Source of the DNA: Candidatus Kaiserbacteria bacterium
GTDB lineage: Bacteria; Patescibacteriota; Minisyncoccia; Phycocordibacterales; UBA2100
DNA length: 42,833 nt
Reading direction: 5' to 3'
Assembly: GCA_016867375.1 (NCBI GenBank)
Contig: VGJQ01000006.1
Location: 1-42,833 of the forward strand
Shown here: positions 7,256 through 23,057 of the stretch, piece after piece
Layout of the letters: each line of letters opens with the position of its first letter
Position numbering within the stretch: position 1 is the stretch's first letter
Program-made: the position numbers and the translations under genes
The notes under the pieces: generated by a model
Database searches by the model: none
What the model saw: only the letters and a program-made list of their open reading frames with translations
Told to the model about the DNA's origin: nothing

Positions 7256-7310
7256 CGGGCGTTATCTACAATTTCCGAAGGTACCTCTCGAAATCACATG
7301 GAGATCACTT

Positions 7311-7335
7311 GAACTATCTCCCTATCTGATACAAT
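7311..7335 (+). promoter_or_regulatory. Possible promoter giving a leaderless MscS transcript
   Basis: TTGAAC (7311-7316) and TACAAT (7330-7335) are 13 bases apart, which is short for a standard promoter; the -10 box ends only 7 bases before the ATG at 7343, so the mRNA would start at or very near the start codon. Confidence 0.35.
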
Positions 7336-7342
7336 AGAACGT

Positions 7343-7867
7343 ATGGCACCGACCGATCTCGACATGATCGTATTTGATCTTCTGCGCGATGCGCTGCGGA
7401 TCGCCTTTGTCATCGCAATCGGCAAGCTCCTCATCCATCTGATCACCACCGCGGTCCTCACGTCGATCGCCATCGCCAAAGGCACCGACGGCTACAAGGA
7501 GCGCGCGCAGACGATCCAAAACGTAATTCGCCTCATCGGCAACACGATTACCTATAGCATCGCACTCTTCCTCCTCCTGACCGCACTCGGCATCGACATC
7601 CGACCGCTTCTTGCAGGTGCGGGTGTATTGGGACTCATCGCGGGTCTGGGTGCACAGACGCTCATGAAGGACTTTTTCACTGGTATCGTCATCTCTGCCG
7701 AAGACCAGTACCGCGTCGGCGAGCGTATCAAGATCAATTCCGGTATCGAGGGCACGGTCGTGGAGATCGCACTGCGCCTCACGACGCTCCGTGGGACCGA
7801 TGGCGAGCTACACCACATCCTCAACAGCGCGATCACCACGGTCACCAATTACTCGCGCAAGAGGTAA
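7343..7867 (+). CDS. Small MscS-family mechanosensitive channel
   Basis: The 174-residue protein has two or three membrane helices, the pore-lining TM3 pattern of MscS (GIDIRPLLAGAGVLGLIAGLGAQTLMKDFFTGIVI, about residues 85-120) and the start of the beta domain (DQYRVGERIKI, GTVVEIALRLTTLR). It ends shortly after the beta domain (NSAITTVTNYSRKR) and lacks the large C-terminal cage of full MscS (about 286 residues in E. coli). It would form an osmotic safety valve in the cytoplasmic membrane. A second MscS gene follows, so the two may be paralogous subunits. Confidence 0.88.
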   Translation: MAPTDLDMIVFDLLRDALRIAFVIAIGKLLIHLITTAVLTSIAIAKGTDGYKERAQTIQNVIRLIGNTITYSIALFLLLTALGIDIRPLLAGAGVLGLIAGLGAQTLMKDFFTGIVISAEDQYRVGERIKINSGIEGTVVEIALRLTTLRGTDGELHHILNSAITTVTNYSRKR

Positions 7868-16574: not shown

Positions 16575-16652
16575 ACGGAAGTGCCCTCGGCCCAAACGGT
16601 GGCGTTTATCGCCGCTTTCCCGCAAGGGATAGGTCCGAGGGCTTCCTTTTGG
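16575..16652 (+). ncRNA. Candidate structured small RNA ending in a terminator-like stem
   Basis: GCCCTCGG (16583-16590) pairs with CCGAGGGC (16635-16642), followed by TTCCTTTT. Inside this stem lie two further hairpins: GGCG-TTTAT-CGCC and TCCC-GCAA-GGGA, the latter a GNRA tetraloop. The result is a three-way junction of about 75 bases in a region without an open frame, between pstB and a convergent gene. I do not recognise the family; it lacks the SRP RNA signature. It could equally be an elaborate terminator of the pst operon. Confidence 0.4.
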
Positions 16653-22725: not shown

Positions 22726-23057
22726 TGGCTCCGCGGGTAGGACTCGAACCTACGACCAACCCGTTACACGTATCCTCTCATTTCTGAAAGGGGTGGACTA
22801 TATCATCACCCGAACACTGAGTGTTCTTGGGTGCGAGGCGCTTCCTGGGAATTCTTGAATTGCATTCAGAATTCCGAGTACTCCCTTTCGGGATAGTCTC
22901 TACACCTTCCGACTCTTTTGAGTTGGCTTGGCTCGGGATTACCCAACTGCCTTTCGACGATTGAGGGTTTCCCCGAATTCACCTCGTTTTTCAACCGAAA
23001 TCACTTTCGGAAGCTGCCTTTGACAGCGGGCCGCTCTACCGACTGAGCTACCGCGGA
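22726..23057 (-). tRNA. tRNA-Asn(GUU) interrupted by a group I intron
   Basis: Exon 1 (23057-23023, 35 bases) gives acceptor TCCGCGG, D arm GCTC..GAGC, anticodon stem GCCCG and loop start CTGT. Exon 2 (22766-22726, 41 bases) gives TAA, stem CGGGT, variable TGGTC, T arm GTAGG-TTCGAGT-CCTAC, acceptor CCGCGGA, discriminator G and an encoded CCA. Joined, the 76-base tRNA has loop CTGTTAA, anticodon GUU (Asn), with all stems intact. Reading only exon 1 into the intron would wrongly suggest GTC (Asp). Confidence 0.93.
22767..23022 (-). other. Group I intron in the tRNA-Asn anticodon (between positions 35 and 36)
   Basis: Exon 1 ends in U (GCTGT) and pairs with the internal guide GGCAGC to form P1 with a U-G pair at the splice site. 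The intron ends in G. The core is readable: Q element AATCCCGAGCCAAGCC (22923-22940 on the complement), R element GTGTAGAGACTA (22894-22905) and S element GATGATATAGTCC (22795-22807), giving P7 from GACTAT and ATAGTC. The intron is about 256 bases and has no open frame, so it carries no homing endonuclease. Confidence 0.9.

Follow-up and report, generated by a model that had tools for sequence, protein, structure and literature searches.

Group I introns in bacterial tRNA genes are known from tRNA-Leu(UAA) in cyanobacteria and plastids, tRNA-Ile(CAU) in Azoarcus, tRNA-Arg(CCU) and tRNA-fMet. The cut falls after U33 in tRNA-fMet, after U34 in tRNA-Leu, and after U36 in tRNA-Ile and tRNA-Arg; an intron between positions 35 and 36 therefore fills a gap among these sites. 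The tRNA hosts named in the reviews and surveys of group I introns consulted here are tRNA-Leu, tRNA-Ile and tRNA-fMet, with one survey adding tRNA-Arg, tRNA-Gly and tRNA-Lys in cyanobacteria; none of them names tRNA-Asn.

For CPR/Patescibacteria, group I introns have been described in the 16S and 23S rRNA genes, mostly with LAGLIDADG endonucleases (Tsurumaki 2024, PMC11270868). CPR tRNAs with group I introns receive one sentence in Lui 2021 (PMC8172020), and the title of a preprint that Nakagawa and colleagues posted in 2025 (10.1101/2025.07.03.662931, cited in PMC12641178) announces a novel site for introns in the tRNA genes of Patescibacteria. Nawrocki 2018 (PMC6125680) collected 39 group I introns from archaea, DPANN lineages included, all of them in rRNA genes, and according to a 2014 review phage introns were then found only in protein genes.

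We consider here the window, that is, the whole stretch of 42,833 nucleotides that was analysed (contig VGJQ01000006.1 of a Candidatus Kaiserbacteria bacterium, assembly GCA_016867375.1), in which a tRNA-Asn(GUU) gene is split at this position. Judged from its sequence, the gene would be an essential, single-copy tRNA-Asn carrying a self-splicing and formerly homing group I intron, a reading to which we assign a probability of about 0.94. Because this essential tRNA has no other detected gene and the one that it has needs splicing, the locus offers a clean natural experiment on group I splicing in uncultured bacteria with reduced genomes.

The split gene and its host tRNA

The gene lies on the minus strand of the window (23057-22726) and, read base by base, is a tRNA-Asn(GUU) in two exons around a group I intron. 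The 5' exon (23023-23057, 35 nt) ends in C32 U33 G34 U35, and this end, CTGT in the DNA, is common to at least 111 related loci among the matches listed. The 3' exon (22726-22766, 41 nt) starts with U36 A37 A38 and has the CCA encoded. The intron (22767-23022, 256 nt) sits between U35 and U36, within the anticodon, and its junctions are fixed by intron-less alleles. The limits given in the original prediction, 22726-23057 with an intron between positions 35 and 36, are exact. The prediction that the two exons join to a complete 76-base tRNA-Asn is borne out as well, the joined halves being called tRNA-Asn(gtt) by ARAGORN with a full cloverleaf, all arms and a GUU anticodon.

It had also been expected that simple scanners would either miss the gene or miscall it as Asp. 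The former is the case, as ARAGORN reports no tRNA in the window for the unspliced gene; the latter is not, the call in intron mode being Thr(tgt) instead. Since standard pipelines overlook such split genes, a tRNA-Asn that appears to be missing from a CPR genome can be an artefact, and tRNA sets serve as a completeness check for these genomes.

Fold of the intron

The covariance-model search proposed as a check on the group I assignment returns a full-length match to Rfam RF00028 (model positions 1-253) with 70.2 bits and an E-value of 6e-16, above the curated gathering score of 50. The assignment rests further on covariation and on the presence of empty sites within one genus.

All elements of the fold are given on the minus strand. 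P1 is formed by CUGU and GCAG, has U.G at the splice site and is extended by one pair between C1 of the intron and G; its 3' strand, with the internal guide sequence GGCAGC, lies at 23013-23018 and pairs with the anticodon-loop CUGU and intron nucleotide 1. It is followed by the P2 hairpin (22995-23010), of which 6/6 pairs covary, the 5' strands of P3 (22980-22986) and P4 (22972-22977), the 3' strand of P4 (22932-22937) and P6/P6a (22905-22931). The 5' strand of P7, the guanosine-binding helix, reads GACUA (22894-22898), and its 3' strand reads UAGUC (22796-22800). Between P7 and P3 are two peripheral hairpins that are P7.1/P7.2-like (22847-22892), after which come the 3' strand of P3 (22834-22840) and the P8 hairpin (22807-22833). 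The P9 hairpin (22774-22791) is followed by P9.0 and the terminal G, up to 22767. The start after U, the P1 with guide GGCAGC, the final G and the readable core elements had all been anticipated; they are found in the window, and the core is supported by covariation in 33 relatives.

This covariation is measured on an alignment of 33 short introns of the same type as that in the window, from which the elements beyond P1 take their support. Over the 51 pairs of P1 to P9, 95.4% of the cells are paired and both sides change in 30 pairs; 0/500 shuffles reach the observed value, and the pairing falls to 44-46% when the partners are slid by one column. With compensatory changes, the paired cells amount to 97.8% in P3, 97.5% in P4 and 95.2% in P8. 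The U.G pair at the splice site is present in 33/33 aligned introns, and P7 (GACUA/UAGUC) is invariant in all 33, an invariance that is partly imposed by the search pattern. RNAalifold independently finds P1-P4, P6, P8 and P9.0 together with the anticodon stem of the exons, and this stem also shows compensatory changes.

The guide itself can be followed in a larger set. Among the matches listed, GCAG, the partner of C32-U33-G34-U35, is present in 104/104 unique introns with a located guide. Intron nucleotide 1 and the nucleotide before the guide form a Watson-Crick pair in 87 of these 104, using four pair types, while shuffled controls average 36 and never exceed 57 for this inner P1 pair. The last base of the intron is G in the window and in the family loci from BLAST; in the loci of the wider search a terminal G is no independent support, because the search pattern demanded it.

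By eye, we take the P4-P6 and P7 motifs to resemble those of IC3 tRNA introns and the P7-P3 hairpins to be more like those of IA. A second intron core, GGGATAACGGTGAA...GACTAGATACC, which is without the P7-P3 hairpins, is found with the same guide at the same site (L050, L052, L083, L089, L096, L111, L141 and others), even in the window's genus. As the two core types share one site and one guide, an exchange of cores is suggested.

Intron-less alleles and copy number

With the gene as BLAST query, 70 genomes of the family (52 from the same genus, the window's own included) yield 12 interrupted tRNA-Asn genes, with CTGT and TAA on the two sides of the intron (the window's included), and 18 intact genes in which CTGT runs directly into TAA. 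Interrupted and intact alleles coexist within one genus. In three pairs of loci (L046/L069, L048/L063 and L052/L060) the mature tRNA with the intron is identical to that without it, and the mature tRNA of the window is two edits apart from its nearest intact relative.

For a broader view we use an even sample of 380 Patescibacteria genomes, in which the patterns are strict and the counts are therefore lower bounds: at least 34 genomes have the intron pattern, at least 238 the intron-less pattern, and 4 both. Thus 30 of the 34 genomes with the intron pattern are without an intron-less match. Within the order, outside the genus, at least 7 of 16 genomes have the intron. In one genome (G080, contig C1, 770171-770580) an intron-type and an intron-less tRNA-Asn match lie about 380 bases apart.

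The window's own genome comprises 1.008 Mb in 50 contigs and is 96% complete. An intact tRNA-Asn elsewhere in it, which the original prediction named, together with a failed splicing test, as a refuting result, is found neither among the 36 tRNA matches of the covariance search nor by the intron-less Asn pattern, which has zero matches in this assembly. Given the completeness and the number of contigs, a second tRNA-Asn could lie in an assembly gap.

Six group I matches are found in this genome: the tRNA-Asn, a tRNA-fMet, and the rest on the contig with the rRNA genes. The tRNA-fMet(CAU) (contig C15, about 7291-7585, plus strand; L003, 1479-1773) has a 220-nt group I intron after U33; the split gene is missed by ARAGORN, and its joined exons are called tRNA-Met. 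The rRNA contig (C22, L042) carries 16S and 23S rRNA genes interrupted by several group I introns as well as by other large insertions. The genome also has a tRNA-Ile with a UAU anticodon (contig C20, 20679-20751), and no tRNA-Ile(CAU) is identified in it, so that AUA may be read without lysidine. In the window itself, a DUF3800-IX RNA match at 16583-16646 on the plus strand reaches 50.5 bits, above its gathering score of 36.8.

Hosts beyond Patescibacteria

Scanning the junction pattern across GTDB genomes gives at least 115 loci. Of the loci listed, 99 are tRNA-Asn genes split at the same site, with a 5' half ending in CTGT, which makes at least 99 further public loci; together with the 12 family loci there are at least 111 loci, some of which duplicate genomes from the family search, and at least 105 unique introns. 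The hosts among the matches listed are mostly Patescibacteria (Kaiserbacteria, Nomurabacteria, Falkowbacteria and other CPR groups), and the others include Omnitrophota, Elusimicrobia, Marinamargulisbacteria (Margulisbacteria) and three Pacearchaeota. Matches in Tessaracoccus (L081), Spirochaetaceae (L091) and Thauera (L093, L176), and some others, are without a tRNA-Asn 5' exon and are not counted; that in Spirochaetaceae is an intact tRNA that lies by chance near TATAGTC.

In each of the three Pacearchaeota loci (L075, L078, L187) a group I intron interrupts tRNA-Asn at the 35/36 site, and RF00028 scores above its cut-off in 3/3 of these genomes. L075 and L078 adjoin a protein that matches the universal archaeal KH family arCOG04150, and L078 is also near Taw3. 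The tRNAs of these two loci start with G, those of the bacterial loci here with U. Two of the three archaeal introns contain an HNH-like frame, one of which has no Pfam match.

In IMG/VR, 21 of 30 matching virus-labelled contigs (L190-L218) have a split tRNA-Asn, and some of the neighbouring genes encode phage-type proteins. On L196 and L207 the gene interrupted at the 35/36 site is a tRNA-Lys(UUU), and here the guide reads GAAG in place of GCAG, which is what a P1 with CUUU requires. A BLAST comparison of two virus-labelled pre-tRNAs with named phages returns short matches only, and because a named phage is not found the viral case is the weaker one.

It seems to us an even bet that homing at the 35/36 junction of tRNA-Asn crosses domains, a single HNH-linked intron family, its guide set on the invariant Asn anticodon loop, having spread through Patescibacteria, Omnitrophota and other phyla, phages and Pacearchaeota. 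The archaeal and phage tRNA group I introns would on this proposal be of kinds so far undescribed.

Endonuclease and mobility

The intron lengths among the matches listed have two modes: most are 180-350 nt or else about 490-720 nt. Most of the long introns contain an HNH-type frame of about 100 aa with CxxCGY...FHH...CANCHRE; the HNH domain of Pfam is above the cut-off in L054 (24.2 bits) and just below it in L143, and no NCBIfam model names the protein. The frame is mostly 5' of the guide, i.e., in the P1 loop, and in several introns it extends into the P2-P4 region. The window's 256-nt intron has no endonuclease reading frame, and because no HNH frame remains, current mobility of this copy is unlikely.

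In a FastTree phylogeny of the introns (232 columns, with SH-like support only) the introns of the window's genus fall into three supported clades. The window's intron groups with L171 and an Elusimicrobia intron (0.94), that of G014 with Nomurabacteria and Adlerbacteria introns (0.93), and those of G045, G046 and G061 lie near a Taylorbacteria intron. Such a scatter is expected from repeated acquisition of the intron within the genus, which it would fit.

Proposed mechanism and alternatives

Established knowledge of group I introns provides the two transesterification steps and the HNH homing of our model. In the transcript, P1 would arise by pairing of the anticodon loop 5'-CUGU-3' to the guide GCAG. 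A guanosine from outside, bound in P7, would attack after U35; in the second step U35 would attack behind the terminal G and so become ligated to U36, which yields the mature tRNA-Asn. With a guide directed at the invariant anticodon loop, the intron should be able to insert into almost any tRNA-Asn gene, and this pairing would explain its movement between very distant hosts. Its spread was probably by homing via the HNH endonuclease starting in the P1 loop, which the window's copy would since have lost.

The gene could be assigned to tRNA-Asp or some other isotype, or its splicing placed at a different point in the loop, given that the unspliced sequence across the 5' junction reads GUC and that the intron mode of ARAGORN gives Thr. 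We reject the tRNA-Asp reading because contig C15 of the same genome carries an intact tRNA-Asp(GUC) and because the intron-less alleles fix the junction, which at 35/36 leaves a 7-base loop and matches their CTGT-TAA; any such reassignment has practically no chance of being right. Very improbable, too, is that the locus is defunct, a tRNA pseudogene whose intron has decayed, and that the Asn codons are read by another, unassembled tRNA-Asn. The draft state of the assembly and the vanished endonuclease frame would suit it, but the cloverleaf is perfect, the catalytic core positions are intact, the P1 pair is retained, the anticodon stem has compensatory changes across the intron, and most of the sampled intron-bearing genomes have no intron-less copy.

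A further question is whether the intron, while real, needs a host protein for splicing and so would not act as a ribozyme on its own in this organism. A need for protein helpers is on record for several group I introns (PMC3984707), and here P5 is short and a P10 pairing with the 3' exon is not evident. The intron is nevertheless small and compact, with a full core and a GAAA-capped P9, and no helper is identified; we consider such a dependence rather unlikely.

Comparison with known systems

With the rRNA introns of Tsurumaki 2024 (PMC11270868) the locus shares the phylum, the group I type and the association with a homing endonuclease, while here the host is a tRNA gene and the relatives carry a small HNH frame. 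The three Pacearchaeota loci differ from the introns of Nawrocki 2018 (PMC6125680) in lying in tRNA-Asn and not in rRNA genes. The 2025 preprint (10.1101/2025.07.03.662931) concerns, by its title, the same phylum and gene class and possibly the same site. The view in the original prediction that tRNA-Asn had not been well described as a host is in keeping with the reviews consulted: the element is of a known kind, its host gene and site are absent from them, and tRNA introns in CPR have already been noticed in Lui 2021 and, possibly at this very site, in the preprint. The features shared with the bacterial tRNA introns are a site in the anticodon loop, a 5' exon ending in U, a small size, a P1 formed with the anticodon loop and a patchy distribution; unlike them, the intron described here has tRNA-Asn as its host and interrupts it between positions 35 and 36.
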